This document shows, piece by piece, positions 12,460-17,741 of a stretch of DNA of 64,000 bases. This DNA is from Pirellulales bacterium (GTDB lineage: Bacteria > Planctomycetota > Planctomycetia > Pirellulales > JACPPG01): assembly GCA_035546535.1 (NCBI GenBank), contig DASZWQ010000057.1, positions 1-64,000 on the forward strand, written 5' to 3'. The notes under the pieces were generated by a model. It had not been told where the DNA came from. It saw only the letters and a program-made list of their open reading frames with translations, and ran no database searches. The position numbers and the translations under genes are program-made. The first letter of the stretch is position 1. The number at the start of each line of letters is the position of its first letter.

Positions 12460-15400
12460 TTACTTCCCGCGCTGGGCGATCAGCGCTGCCAGCGCCGCAT
12501 CGGTGGCTGCCAGGCGTTCGTGCTGCTCGGTCAGTGAGCGGCGTTCGGCCTCGACCACTTCGGCCGGCGCCCGCTCGACGAAGTTGGCATTCGCCAGCTT
12601 TTTTTCCTTGGTCGCGATCGCGCCGAGCAGCCGTTCGCGCTCTTTCTGATTCCGCGCGATTTCGGCTTCGACGTCGATCAAGCCGGCCAGGTCCACGAAC
12701 AGCTCTCCGGCGCGGAGCACGGTGTTCGCGCTCGTGGCGGGCGCGGTGACCGCCGGCCCCCACTCGGTTCCCTGCGCCTTGGCCATCGATTCGAAATAGC
12801 CGGCCATCGGCTCGAGTAGCGCGGCCACGTCCGGCTCGCACCGCAACGAGAAGCGGATCTCGGTGCGCGGCGGCAAATTCTGCCGGCTGCGAATCTCGCG
12901 CAAGCCGCCGAGCACTTCTTGAAACCGCGCGAAACGGGCTTCGCTCGCCGCATCTTGCCGGGCGCGGTCCACCTCGGGCCACGTCGCGATCATCACGCTC
13001 TCGGCCGGCGGCTCTTGCTTCGTAAGTCCGCGCAGCGGCGCCGCCTCGTTCAACAACTGCCAAATCTCCTCGGTGATGAACGGAATTACCGGGTGCAACA
13101 GCCGCAACAAATTATCGAGCGTGTGCGCGAGCACGCGCTGCGCCGTCGGGCGGCTGGCCGGATCTTGCAGCCGCGCCTTCACCATTTCCAGGTAAAAGCT
13201 GCAGAATTCGTCCCAGGCGAATTCATACAACAGCCGCGTCGCGTCGGCAAAGTGATAAGCGTCCAGCGCCGCGGTCACGCCGTCGGTCACGGTCGCCAAC
13301 CGGCTGAGGATCCATCGATCTTCGGTCACCAGCTGCGTGTCGTCGACTTTGCCCGGCGTATACCCTTCCAGGTTCATCAGCACGAACCGTGCGGCATTCC
13401 ACAGCTTGTTGCAGAAATTCCGCGCCAGCTCGAACCGATCGCTCACCACGGCGCCGCGCGGCAGGGCCACGTCGGCCGCCTTTTCGGCCCATTGCGTGGC
13501 GAACTCCTTGCCGCACTGCTTGCACGGCACGCGCGGCAGCACGCGATTCTTCTTCGTCTGCTCGACCAGCGCTCCGCAGTGCGGGCATTCGAATTCCACC
13601 GGCATCCGCACGTCCTGCGTTTCGGTCGTGAGGTACGCCAGCCCGAACCGCAACGCGTCAGCGCCGAACTTCTCCATGATGTCGACCGGGTCGACGCCGT
13701 TCCCCTTCGACTTGCTCATGGTTTCGCCATAGCCGTCGAGGATCTTCGGATGGATGAACACCTCGCGGAACGGCACATCTCCGACGTTGTGCAGCCCGGT
13801 GAGCACCATGCGCGCCACCCACAGCGTGATGATGTCCCGGCTCGTCACTAGCGCGCTTGTCGGGTAGTAGTACGCCAGCTCTGGAGTTTTCTCCGGCCAG
13901 CCGAAGGTCGAGTGCGGCCACAGGGCCGAGCTGAACCAGGTATCGAGCACGTCGGCCTCGCGCGTCAGTTTGCAGCCCGGCACCGCGTCCTCGGCCAGAT
14001 CCTCTTCGCGTGCGCAGATGAGCCAGCGGTCATGCTCCGGATCGCGGTGCCACACGACGTCATCACGACCGGCGAAGGCGCGCTTCAAATCCGCTTCGCT
14101 CGCGCCCGGCGCGTACCAGATCGGAATCTGATGCCCCCACCACAATTGCCGGCTGATGGGCCAGTCGCGCTTCTCCCCCAGCCAGTCGAGATAGCCGCTT
14201 TTATATCGTTCGGGCACGATCTTCACGCGGCCGTCGCTCACGGCATCCATCGCCGACTGCGCGAGGTCCTGCATGCGCACGAACCATTGATCCGCCAAGA
14301 GCGGCTCGATCGGCGTCTTTGAACGGTCGGAGTGCGCGAGCTCGATCTCGCGATCCTCGACCTCGGCCAGCAGGCCGGCCGCTTCCATGTCGGCCACGAC
14401 GCGCTCGCGCGCTTTGAGAATCTTCAGCTTCGCGTACGGGCCGGCATTTTCGTTCAGCGTGCCGTCGATGTTTAACACATTGATCATCGGCAAAGATTGC
14501 CGCTTACCCACCTCGTAGTCGTTCGGATCGTGGGCCGGCGTAATTTTCACGCAGCCGCTACCCAGCTCAGGCTTGGCCCACTCGTCGGCCACGAGCGGAA
14601 TCTCGCGATTCATGAGCGGCAACATCACTTTGCGACCAGCCCGCGCCATGTCGCGCAGCTTTTCCAGCCCGGCGAGCATCGTGCGGCGACGATCGGCCAG
14701 CGCGTCGAGCTGCGTTTGGATCTCGGGGCGTTGCTTCTCGGCGGCCTCGGCCAGCTTTTGCCGCAACTCGGCTTCGGCCGCGTCGAGCGCGCGCGCCGGG
14801 TCGGGATGCACCGCCACGGCCGTATCGCCTAGCATCGTCTCGGGCCGGGTCGTGGCCACGGTCACGTGCGTCGGCTCGCCGGGCTGCGGATCGATCACCG
14901 GATAGCGCAAATGCCAGAAGTGCCCGGCTACCGCCTCGTGAAACACTTCGTCATCGCTCACCGCGGTTTGCAGGAACGTATCCCAGTTCACCATCCGGCG
15001 ACCGCGATAGATCAAGCCTTCCTGGAAGAAGGTAAAGAACGTATGCCGCACGGCCCGGGCGCACACTTCGTCGAGCGTAAAGCGCGTTCGCTGCCAATCG
15101 CAGCTACAGCCCAGCCGCTTGAGCTGCCCGAGAATGCGCCGCTCGTATTCGTTCTTCCAATCCCAGATACGGGCCACGAGCTTTTCGCGCCCCAGGTCGT
15201 GCCGCGATAGCTTCTCCTCTTCCAATAGCCGTCGCTCGACCACGGCCTGCGTGGCAATGCCCGCATGATCGGTGCCCGGCATGTACAAGGCATTGAAGCC
15301 GCGCATCCGCTTGCTGCGGATCAAAATATCCTGGATCGTGTTGTTCAGTGCGTGGCCCAGGTGCAGCGCGCCGGTCACGTTCGGCGGCGGGATGACGATC

Positions 15401-15534
15401 GCGTAGGGCTTGCGCTTGGGGTCAGGCTCGCTGTGAAAATACTTGCGCTCTTCCCAAAACCGGTACCAGCGCTGCTCGGGCCCCGCGTGATGATACTGCT
15501 TGGGCAGTTCTTGCTCCGTCGTCGTGGTCGACAT
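12460..15534 (-). CDS. valS: Valine-tRNA ligase
   Basis: ValRS of 1024 residues, charging tRNA-Val with valine; class I. The HIGH-type motif is in PPNVTGALHLGHAL (about residues 48-62) and the KMSKS motif is TMSKSKGNG (residue 606 on). The C-terminal coiled coil (residues about 955-1024, LIDVEAEIARNQKERERLL and onward) is the tRNA-binding arm typical of ValRS. Unusual is a segment at about residues 645-675 with CPHCG and CKQCG, four cysteines in a zinc-ribbon spacing, placed between the KMSKS loop and the anticodon-binding domain (which begins near RNFCNKLWNAARFVL). The gene lies 187 bases downstream of cimA on the same strand, so both may share the leader-controlled transcript. Confidence 0.97.
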   Translation of the reverse strand: MSTTTTEQELPKQYHHAGPEQRWYRFWEERKYFHSEPDPKRKPYAIVIPPPNVTGALHLGHALNNTIQDILIRSKRMRGFNALYMPGTDHAGIATQAVVERRLLEEEKLSRHDLGREKLVARIWDWKNEYERRILGQLKRLGCSCDWQRTRFTLDEVCARAVRHTFFTFFQEGLIYRGRRMVNWDTFLQTAVSDDEVFHEAVAGHFWHLRYPVIDPQPGEPTHVTVATTRPETMLGDTAVAVHPDPARALDAAEAELRQKLAEAAEKQRPEIQTQLDALADRRRTMLAGLEKLRDMARAGRKVMLPLMNREIPLVADEWAKPELGSGCVKITPAHDPNDYEVGKRQSLPMINVLNIDGTLNENAGPYAKLKILKARERVVADMEAAGLLAEVEDREIELAHSDRSKTPIEPLLADQWFVRMQDLAQSAMDAVSDGRVKIVPERYKSGYLDWLGEKRDWPISRQLWWGHQIPIWYAPGASEADLKRAFAGRDDVVWHRDPEHDRWLICAREEDLAEDAVPGCKLTREADVLDTWFSSALWPHSTFGWPEKTPELAYYYPTSALVTSRDIITLWVARMVLTGLHNVGDVPFREVFIHPKILDGYGETMSKSKGNGVDPVDIMEKFGADALRFGLAYLTTETQDVRMPVEFECPHCGALVEQTKKNRVLPRVPCKQCGKEFATQWAEKAADVALPRGAVVSDRFELARNFCNKLWNAARFVLMNLEGYTPGKVDDTQLVTEDRWILSRLATVTDGVTAALDAYHFADATRLLYEFAWDEFCSFYLEMVKARLQDPASRPTAQRVLAHTLDNLLRLLHPVIPFITEEIWQLLNEAAPLRGLTKQEPPAESVMIATWPEVDRARQDAASEARFARFQEVLGGLREIRSRQNLPPRTEIRFSLRCEPDVAALLEPMAGYFESMAKAQGTEWGPAVTAPATSANTVLRAGELFVDLAGLIDVEAEIARNQKERERLLGAIATKEKKLANANFVERAPAEVVEAERRSLTEQHERLAATDAALAALIAQRGK

Positions 15535-15721: not shown

Positions 15722-17305
15722 TCATTTTGCATTTCCTGCACTTCTCGTCTCGTCCTTGCACAGCTTGTATTCGAAGCTGTCGACCAGCGCCATCCAACTG
15801 GCCTCGATGATGTTCTCGCTCACGCCCACCGTGCCCCATACGTCGTGATCGTCGCGGCTTTCGATCACCACGCGTACGCCGGCGGCCGTGGCCGCTTCGG
15901 AGTTGATAACCCGCACTTTGTAATCAACCAGGTGCATTTTGGCGAGACTCGGATAGGCCGCGGCCAGCGCCTTGCGCAGCGCCGCGTCGAGCGCATTGAC
16001 CGGGCCGTCTCCTTCGGCCACTTCGTGGCGCACGGTATCGCCGACGCGGATTTTCACCGTGGCCTCGGTCGTCACTTCGCCGCCGGCGTCGGCCTCGACC
16101 GACACGTGAAAATTCAACCGCTCGAAGTGCGGCGTGAACGTGCCGGCACAGCGCCGGACGAGCAAATCGAACGACGCTTCGGCCGCTTCGAACTGGTAGC
16201 CGGCGTTCTCCATCTTCACGACTTTGTCCAGAATCTTCTCGGCGAGCGCCCGATCGTGCTGCAGGTTGTGCTTCGTGGTGAGCGCCTGGATGTTCGAACG
16301 GCCAGACAGCTCGCTCACCAGAATGCGGCGTTCATTGCCGACTTTTTCCGGCGTGATGTGCTCGTAACTGGCCGTCGCGCGATTCACGGCATGGGCGTGC
16401 ATCCCGCCCTTGTGCGCAAAAGCGCTCGAACCCACGAAGGGCTGGCCGTTGCGAAAGTTCATGTTCGCCAGCTCATAGGCGTAGCGCGACAGCTCGGTCA
16501 GCCGCTGTAAGCTCTCGGGCCGCAGGACTTCGTAGCCCGACTTCTTCAGCGCCAGGTTCGCCACCACCGCGATCAGGTCGACGTTGCCGCACCGCTCCCC
16601 CACGCCATTGATCGTTCCCTGCACGTGATCGGCACCGGCGTCGACGGCCGCCAGCGTGTTGGCCACGGCCAGTTCGCAATCGTTATGGCAGTGAATGCCC
16701 ACCGGCACCTTCAGCGACTCGCGGGCCGCCCGCGTCAGCTCGGCGATTTTCTCCGGCAGGTTGCCACCGTTGGTATCACACAGCACGACGGTTCGGGCAC
16801 CCGCCTCGGCCGCGGCCTGGATCGTGCGGCGCGCGTAGTCAGGGTTCGCCTTCCAGCCGTCGAAAAAATGTTCGGCGTCGTAGATCACCTCGCGCCCCAT
16901 GCGGCGCAGGTAGGCGATACTATCGGCGATCATTTCGACGTTTTCATCGAGCGTGGCGGACAATACCTCGGTGACGTGAAAGTCCCACGTTTTGCCCACC
17001 ATCGTGATGATCTTCGCGCCCGAGTCGACCAGGGCCTTCATGCCCGGGTCTTGATCGGCCGAGATCCCCTTGCGACGCGTCATGCCGAACGCGCACACCC
17101 GGGCGTGAGCCAGATTCAGTCCGCCGACGCGCTGGAAATATTGCGCGTCCTTGTCGTTCGACAGCGGATAACCCCCTTCGATGTAATCGAAGCCCAGGCT
17201 GTCGAGCCGCTGGGACAAGAGCAGCTTGTCCTGCAGCGAGAAGTTGACCCCCTCGCCCTGGCTGCCATCGCGCAGTGTAGTGTCGTAGATTTCGATGCGG
17301 CGCAT
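15722..17305 (-). CDS. cimA: (R)-citramalate synthase
   Basis: A 527-residue enzyme that condenses pyruvate and acetyl-CoA to (R)-citramalate, the first step of the threonine-independent route to isoleucine. The N-terminus IEIYDTTLRDGSQGEGVNFS carries the DRE-TIM metallolyase signature, and GIHCHNDCELAVANTLAA supplies the HxH metal ligands. GAGTINGVGER-type motif is read as QGTINGVGERCGN. The C-terminal 130 residues (from about 395) form the LeuA-type allosteric domain. Length and the phrase YIEGGYPLSNDKD fit the cimA/aksA-like branch (citramalate synthase) rather than isopropylmalate synthase. A GAGGAA ribosome site lies about 11 bases before the ATG. Upstream are an intrinsic terminator and a Val/Ile-rich leader ORF (listed separately), a strong sign of attenuation control. 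Confidence 0.93.
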   Translation of the reverse strand: MRRIEIYDTTLRDGSQGEGVNFSLQDKLLLSQRLDSLGFDYIEGGYPLSNDKDAQYFQRVGGLNLAHARVCAFGMTRRKGISADQDPGMKALVDSGAKIITMVGKTWDFHVTEVLSATLDENVEMIADSIAYLRRMGREVIYDAEHFFDGWKANPDYARRTIQAAAEAGARTVVLCDTNGGNLPEKIAELTRAARESLKVPVGIHCHNDCELAVANTLAAVDAGADHVQGTINGVGERCGNVDLIAVVANLALKKSGYEVLRPESLQRLTELSRYAYELANMNFRNGQPFVGSSAFAHKGGMHAHAVNRATASYEHITPEKVGNERRILVSELSGRSNIQALTTKHNLQHDRALAEKILDKVVKMENAGYQFEAAEASFDLLVRRCAGTFTPHFERLNFHVSVEADAGGEVTTEATVKIRVGDTVRHEVAEGDGPVNALDAALRKALAAAYPSLAKMHLVDYKVRVINSEAATAAGVRVVIESRDDHDVWGTVGVSENIIEASWMALVDSFEYKLCKDETRSAGNAK

Positions 17306-17323: not shown

Positions 17324-17399
17324 AAAAAAACCCTGCCGGCCATCGAGCGGCCTCAGGGCTTGCGATCGTGCGGATTAAACGCCCTCGACGCCCTAGGCC
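17324..17399 (-). promoter_or_regulatory. Transcription attenuator of cimA (antiterminator/terminator pair)
   Basis: Minus-strand order: segment 2, GGCCTAGGGC (17399 to 17390), which contains the leader stop codon TAG; segment 3, GCCCTGAGGCC (17359 to 17349); segment 4, GGCCGGCAGGG (17341 to 17331); then seven T (17330 to 17324) and GTTTT. Segments 3 and 4 form a terminator (CCCTG/CAGGG outside, GGCC/GGCC inside, 7-base loop). Segments 2 and 3 can pair instead over 10 bp with one bulged G. A ribosome held at the Val/Ile codons leaves segment 2 free and favours the antiterminator; a ribosome that reaches the stop codon covers segment 2 and lets the terminator form. The cimA ATG follows 18 bases after the T run. 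Confidence 0.8.
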
Positions 17400-17506
17400 T
17401 GCGCCCCCTGAATAATCGCGATAATAACGCCGACGACCGATCGGGCAGCGTAACCGCCCCCGCCGTAGGAATTCCGGCCGTCGCTCATCAACTTCGCGCT
17501 TGTCAT
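17393..17506 (-). CDS. cimA leader peptide (branched-chain amino acid type)
   Basis: A short ORF of 37 codons from ATG 17506 or 31 codons from the in-frame ATG at 17488, ending at TAG 17393-17395. It is too short for routine gene calling. The C-terminal part reads ARSVVGVIIAIIQGAQA: three Val and four Ile codons within nine, followed five codons later by the stop. This is the composition of ilv-type attenuation leaders, and cimA makes the isoleucine precursor. Neither start has a strong Shine-Dalgarno sequence; the second ATG has only GCGAAG upstream, and leaderless or non-SD starts are common in Planctomycetes. The ORF end overlaps the antiterminator segment. Clustering by chance is possible but unlikely given the position. 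Confidence 0.7.
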   Translation of the reverse strand: MTSAKLMSDGRNSYGGGGYAARSVVGVIIAIIQGAQA

Positions 17507-17668
17507 CGGAGGCACTTTGCCAGGACCAAAGGTCTTATTCAGTCAAAAGATACGCCGCAAAACAGGGGGTGTCAATCGCCGCTTGTTCGGCGTGTGCAGC
17601 TCCTAATTCCGACACGCCGGTCGGCGGAAAGGTTCCAGGCCCCTGGCGTTATTGGATATTGTCCAGTA

Positions 17669-17741
17669 CCAGCCCGAAGCGCCAGCGAGGGATCTTTTGC
17701 AAGGGCGTCGCAACCAAAGCCTCGCTCGCGCTTCGGGCTGG
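17669..17741. repeat. Palindromic repeat, AGCCCGAAGCGCCAGCGAGG type, copy 1
   Basis: The left arm is CAGCCCGAAGCGCCAGCGAG and the right arm CTCGCTCGCGCTTCGGGCTG, with about 27 bases between. Further copies are at 18825-18896 and 58741-58818. All three lie between genes, and the arms are conserved while the loop is not. Confidence 0.9.

Follow-up and report, generated by a model that had tools for sequence, protein, structure and literature searches.

The citramalate synthase gene (cimA) of a Pirellulales bacterium is very probably controlled, likely as one unit with valS, by a ribosome-mediated transcription attenuator that responds to isoleucine and valine. The attenuator lies on the minus strand of a 64,000-nucleotide stretch of DNA (hereafter, the window), for which a sequence-only reading had proposed such a device in front of cimA. 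That proposal finds support both in the related loci and in pathway-matched leaders in front of leuA and the DAHP synthase gene. We amend it in two respects. As valS follows cimA, the two genes are likely to be regulated as one unit, and, judged from sequence, the design is not identical to that of enterobacterial trp, because no conserved 1:2 stem was found.

Organization of the cimA leader in the window

All the parts described here are on the minus strand. A consensus-like promoter site, TTGACA-N17-TATCTT (17547..17575), unmentioned in the sequence-only reading, is followed by the leader peptide ORF MTSAKLMSDGRNSYGGGGYAARSVVGVIIAIIQGAQA (17393..17506), which extends over 37 codons from the ATG at 17506 to the TAG at 17395-17393; ATG 17488 (31 codons) and GTG 17515 (40 codons) are alternative starts. 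The claimed ORF of 31-37 codons containing VVGVIIAII was present exactly at its expected place (17506/17488 to 17393), and this regulatory cluster is encoded by GTC GTC GGC GTT ATT ATC GCG ATT ATT (17411..17437). The leader TAG lies, as had been proposed, inside segment 2 (GGCCTAGGGC, 17390..17399). This segment pairs with segment 3 (GCCCTGAGGCC, 17349..17359), and the 10 bp with one bulged G described earlier were recovered, with a computed pairing energy of -20.7 kcal/mol in the window. Segment 3 is common to the antiterminator and the terminator; in the latter it pairs with segment 4 (GGCCGGCAGGG, 17331..17341), the 3' arm of the terminator hairpin (17331-17359). A T7 run directly 3' of the hairpin (17324..17330) is the predicted intrinsic termination site, and the ATG of cimA (17305), with a GAGGAA before it (17316-17311), comes 18 bases past this run; both the terminator with its seven U and this spacing agree with the earlier description. 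The gene cimA (15722..17305; TIGR00977, 671.7 bits, cut-off 450) starts isoleucine synthesis, and 3' of it lies valS (12460..15534; NF004349), which encodes valine-tRNA ligase (valyl-tRNA synthetase).

A simple terminator scan missed the terminator of the window, and it was found by folding ahead of each T run. Its stability is not unusual for its composition (z -0.38 against shuffled sequence), so the evidence for the attenuator is comparative rather than energetic. The single-sequence thermodynamic z-score for 240 nt of the window leader was also weak (-1.94).

We propose the following course of events, in which termination, stalling, the response to starvation and cimA-valS co-transcription are inferred, and the parts, their conservation, the compensating changes and the footprint geometry are taken from sequence. 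RNA polymerase would start near 17540, and a ribosome would begin the leader ORF on the nascent RNA. With Ile- and Val-tRNA charged, the ribosome would reach the TAG and cover segment 2, upon which the 3:4 hairpin would form and transcription would stop at the U run, at about 17324. A shortage of Ile- or Val-tRNA would stall the ribosome in VVGVIIAII and leave segment 2 free to pair with segment 3, and the polymerase would read into cimA and probably valS.

Upstream of the leader, the window also has a long palindrome, AGCCCGAAGCGCCAGCGAGG...CCTCGCTCGCGCTTCGGGCT (17671-17739), probably an interspersed repeat, for which Rfam gave matches at chance level only.

Leader composition, promoter and gene order in relatives

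We compared 80 named planctomycete cimA loci, together with the genus of the window and samples of its class and phylum. A terminator preceded cimA in 74/85 loci, including two duplicates. Comparison of related upstream regions had been suggested as a check on the sequence-only reading, and it showed that the Val/Ile cluster is kept in most of those with a terminator: at least five Val/Ile in nine codons of an ORF ending just before the terminator were found in 51/66 cimA loci (77%), and in 2.1% of shuffled DNA. No other residue class had a comparable excess in the leaders of these 66 loci. The peptides vary in sequence and length, even within the genus, and only their Val/Ile composition is kept. 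Their Ile codons are ATT in 74% of the cases, compared to 27% in the cimA coding sequences, and the fraction was higher in the leader in 58 of 59 loci; Val codons had no clear bias of this kind in the 59 related loci. The preference for ATT may make the leader more sensitive to the charging of tRNA-Ile or prevent the region from forming structure.

The flanking elements are also conserved. Most of the related leaders retain a stop codon next to segment 2 as well as the U run. A site of the form TTGACN-N15-19-TANNNT was observed upstream of the leader in 50/59 related loci (0.4 expected), and a valS-like gene lies downstream of cimA on the same strand in 64/74. The distance between the stop codon and the terminator is nearly fixed (mostly 29-42 nt), and that between the terminator and cimA ranges from 14 to 494 nt across the loci, which speaks for control of termination and not of the translation start. 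These distances bear on translational coupling, in which cimA would be translated by ribosomes that restart after ending the leader, the hairpin being incidental. Re-initiation from leader genes near structural genes has been put forward as a means of increasing translation, in Planctomycetes as well (PMC4833913), but many of our loci are far past re-initiation range while the spacing of stop codon and terminator is nearly fixed, and re-initiation explains neither the amino-acid specificity nor the covariation of segments 2 and 3 described below. We consider coupling of this kind very unlikely, and transcription attenuation remains our preferred reading.

Some loci differ in arrangement. The terminator is about 500-580 nt from cimA in L052, L059, L064 and L072, and a Val/Ile leader was found in L052 and L059; by eye, the intervening sequence of all four resembles a gene for a small four-helix-bundle protein inserted between attenuator and target. 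In four loci of a marine group (L023, L041, L065 and L194), cimA is directly preceded, within about 200 nt, by a promoter-like site and a strong terminator, and no Val/Ile-rich ORF was found between the two.

Competing stems covary and fit the ribosome footprint

Pairing between the segments was assessed by an alignment-free swap test, which compares how well segment 2 of a locus pairs with the terminator arm of that locus and with the arms of all the other loci. This test replaced the counting of pairs because MAFFT alignments put segment 2 out of register near the stop codon. At the 61 cimA loci, segment 2 paired better with its own segment 3 than with swapped ones (z -5.5, 0/5000 permutations, shared ancestry being ignored). 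The 3:4 swap test gave a z of -14.8, again with permutations that ignore shared ancestry. Compensated forms of the 2:3 stem include GGGCTT/GAAGCCC (L026, L033), TCGATCTTAGGG/CCCTGAGGTCGA (L009), GACC/GGTC (L020) and CGGGGTC/GACCCCG (L080). The search for covarying 2:3 and 3:4 stems in relatives, also suggested with the sequence-only reading, thus came out in its favour, as both stems are conserved in most of them with compensating changes.

With segment 2 free, the RNA of the window folded into the 2:3 form, and masking the first 12 nt from the stop switched it to the 3:4 form. If the ribosome is taken to cover 12 nt beyond its A site, a ribosome with the first regulatory codon in that site leaves segment 2 free in 61/61 loci, and one with the stop codon there covers half or more of the segment in 55/61. 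Ribosome-mediated attenuation requires both this geometry and the codon specificity.

No conserved 1:2 stem emerged among these loci: the pairing was no stronger than with shuffled upstream sequence (z -1.6), a result compatible with a weak or variable stem. The trp/ilv/leu-type layout assigned to the leader earlier stood for the ORF, the stop codon and the competing stems, and not for this element. The four-segment type of enterobacterial trp has a pause or protector stem, of which no conserved counterpart was found in the planctomycete leaders, and read-through is predicted when the leader is untranslated.

Pathway-matched leaders precede leuA and the DAHP synthase gene

We searched the window's own genome with a covariance model of segments 2-4. 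The cimA leader ranked first, followed by leaders of leuA and DAHP synthase. The leuA gene has a Leu-rich leader, MARLNLLPLRLRLLALGKR, with its own terminator (L002/L204, G000:C1:2270-2563), in which the segment CGCTAGGGTTCGTACG pairs with CATACGAACCCTAAGG. The DAHP synthase gene is preceded by a leader rich in Trp, Phe and Tyr, MTSAHTTSWFWFYFTPTGRGAGGGI, also with its own terminator (L203/L241, G000:C29:12563-12706); here segment 2 is within the ORF, about 25 nt ahead of the stop. In this genome, no matching leader with a terminator was found at trpE, ilvB, hisG and ileS. Class-wide, 19/21 leuA loci with a terminator carried the Leu leader and 16/17 such DAHP synthase loci the aromatic one, and cross-enrichment of residue classes among the three kinds of leader was nearly nil. 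The 2:3 swap tests gave z -4.7 for leuA and z -4.1 for DAHP synthase (each 0/5000, with shared ancestry ignored). These putative pathway-matched leaders serve as an internal positive control.

The same data bear on the possibility that the ORF encodes a small membrane protein or an arrest peptide with a terminator of its own, unrelated to cimA control. VVGVIIAII is hydrophobic, and small ORFs followed by terminators do exist. However, what is kept, even within the genus, is the Val/Ile content and not the peptide sequence, the corresponding peptides are aromatic at DAHP synthase and leucine-rich at leuA, Ile is encoded by ATT counter to the preference of the coding sequences, and the stop codon lies at or in the segment that covaries with the terminator arm. 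Such a gene is an extremely improbable explanation compared to a leader peptide that senses charged tRNA.

A metabolite-binding riboswitch or a T-box, with an ORF present by chance, would likewise account for a 5' leader in which terminator and antiterminator compete. No Rfam family reached the gathering score in 10 related loci, however, and the window region had chance-level matches only. Conservation is limited to a core of segments 2-4, the region upstream has no conserved pairing to segment 2, and the codon identity follows the pathway in three gene families. We give this explanation hardly any weight, and retain the ribosome as the sensor.

Relation to known attenuators

In the trp, his, leu and ilv attenuators of Proteobacteria, the terminating ribosome covers segment 2, and the leader codons match the product of the pathway. 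The planctomycete leaders resemble these in the short codon-rich ORF, the terminator competing with an antiterminator and the placement of the stop, and differ in the phylum, in the target (cimA with valS) and in having the stop inside or right before segment 2. The Proteobacterial systems were the subject of a comparative survey (Vitreschak 2004, as cited in PMC2965389). For Actinobacteria, trp and leuS attenuators and ilvB leaders have been described, with antiterminators and terminators made of complementary triples, gGCC-rGCy-GGCC for trp (PMC1262725). The GGCC / GAGGCC / GGCC of the window are similar to the trp triples, but, so far as we can judge, the planctomycete leader is not homologous to the actinobacterial attenuators. 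Altering the codons had no effect for ilvB and leuA of Streptomyces, and these are hence not classical attenuators (PMC1262725). The Rhodobacterales cysS leader uORFC-8-2 has codons for its own amino acid and was judged to act by ribosome-mediated attenuation (PMC8632094). It is alike in placing an aminoacyl-tRNA synthetase gene under a leader with matching codons, whereas here valS comes after a biosynthetic gene and the leader has both Ile and Val codons.

According to a 2010 survey, leader-peptide systems had been shown before only in Proteobacteria and Actinobacteria, to which it added Firmicutes (PMC2965389). Leader genes were counted in Planctomycetes in a statistical treatment of the re-initiation hypothesis (PMC4833913); that work also deals with short ORFs upstream of genes in this phylum, but names no amino-acid attenuator there in the part available. 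We found no earlier report of leader-peptide attenuation in Planctomycetota in the literature searched, mostly non-subscription. The mechanism is known; its occurrence in Planctomycetota and on the target cimA appears to be undescribed. The novelty lies in the biology that becomes testable, not in the mechanism: leader-peptide control is extended to a phylum for which no described case was found, and the planctomycete leaders would be ready reporters of amino-acid supply.

Spread through the phylum and transcription-translation coupling

In family f78, which we take to be Gemmataceae, a cimA leader was observed in 18 of 22 loci with a terminator. It has a different, matching sequence, for example MFTRSTPTVIMIPAVIGVVVITTG (L152); segment 2 is of the GCGGGGTC type, the terminators follow the pattern GACCCCGGAGC..GCTTCGGGGTTTT, and the 2:3 swap test of this leader gave z -3.9 (0/5000, shared ancestry ignored). 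A 9.0 Mb single-contig member of this family (G169) has both a leader before cimA (L144) and a Leu leader before leuA (L236).

Attenuation works only with a ribosome close behind RNA polymerase, and a working attenuator thus requires transcription and translation to be coupled at the leader. The recurrence of the design before cimA and two other amino-acid genes suggests that planctomycetes probably translate RNA that is still being made. We lean towards a broader conclusion, that Planctomycetota have a widespread attenuation regulon (cimA-valS with Ile/Val, leuA with Leu, DAHP synthase with Trp/Phe/Tyr) built on a three-segment switch that lacks the 1:2 stem and reads through by default when the leader is untranslated, and that in the presumed Gemmataceae the nascent RNA is translated during transcription, contrary to the separation proposed in Gemmata. 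For Gemmata obscuriglobus, transcription and translation had been suggested to be spatially segregated (Gottshall et al. 2014, as cited in PMC5394234 and PMC5287468), and proteome work on Tuwongella gave no support for a nuclear compartment (PMC8567305). With covarying attenuators of more than one pathway in the presumed Gemmataceae, the debate on coupling becomes a direct molecular test, namely whether the supply of a single amino acid alters read-through at defined terminators.

About a quarter of the cimA loci are without the leader. In family f77, presumably Isosphaeraceae, neither leader nor terminator was found before cimA (0/13 genomes sampled; L171-L183), and the leaders of leuA and DAHP synthase persist in several members; this one attenuator appears to have been lost or replaced before cimA in that family. 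The leader is dispensable, given the quarter of loci without it and one family that lacks it wholly. Other classes of Planctomycetota have Ile leaders in places, such as MNIQNIIISIIINIGGD (L107) and MTNTLIIIGRIII (L121), and one well-sampled clade among them (L101-L106, L109) has none. Family f44, of another class of the phylum, has a conserved GC-rich hairpin, GCCCTGCCGC..GCGGCAGGGTCGCCATT, without a T run upstream of cimA (L113, L114, L116, L118).
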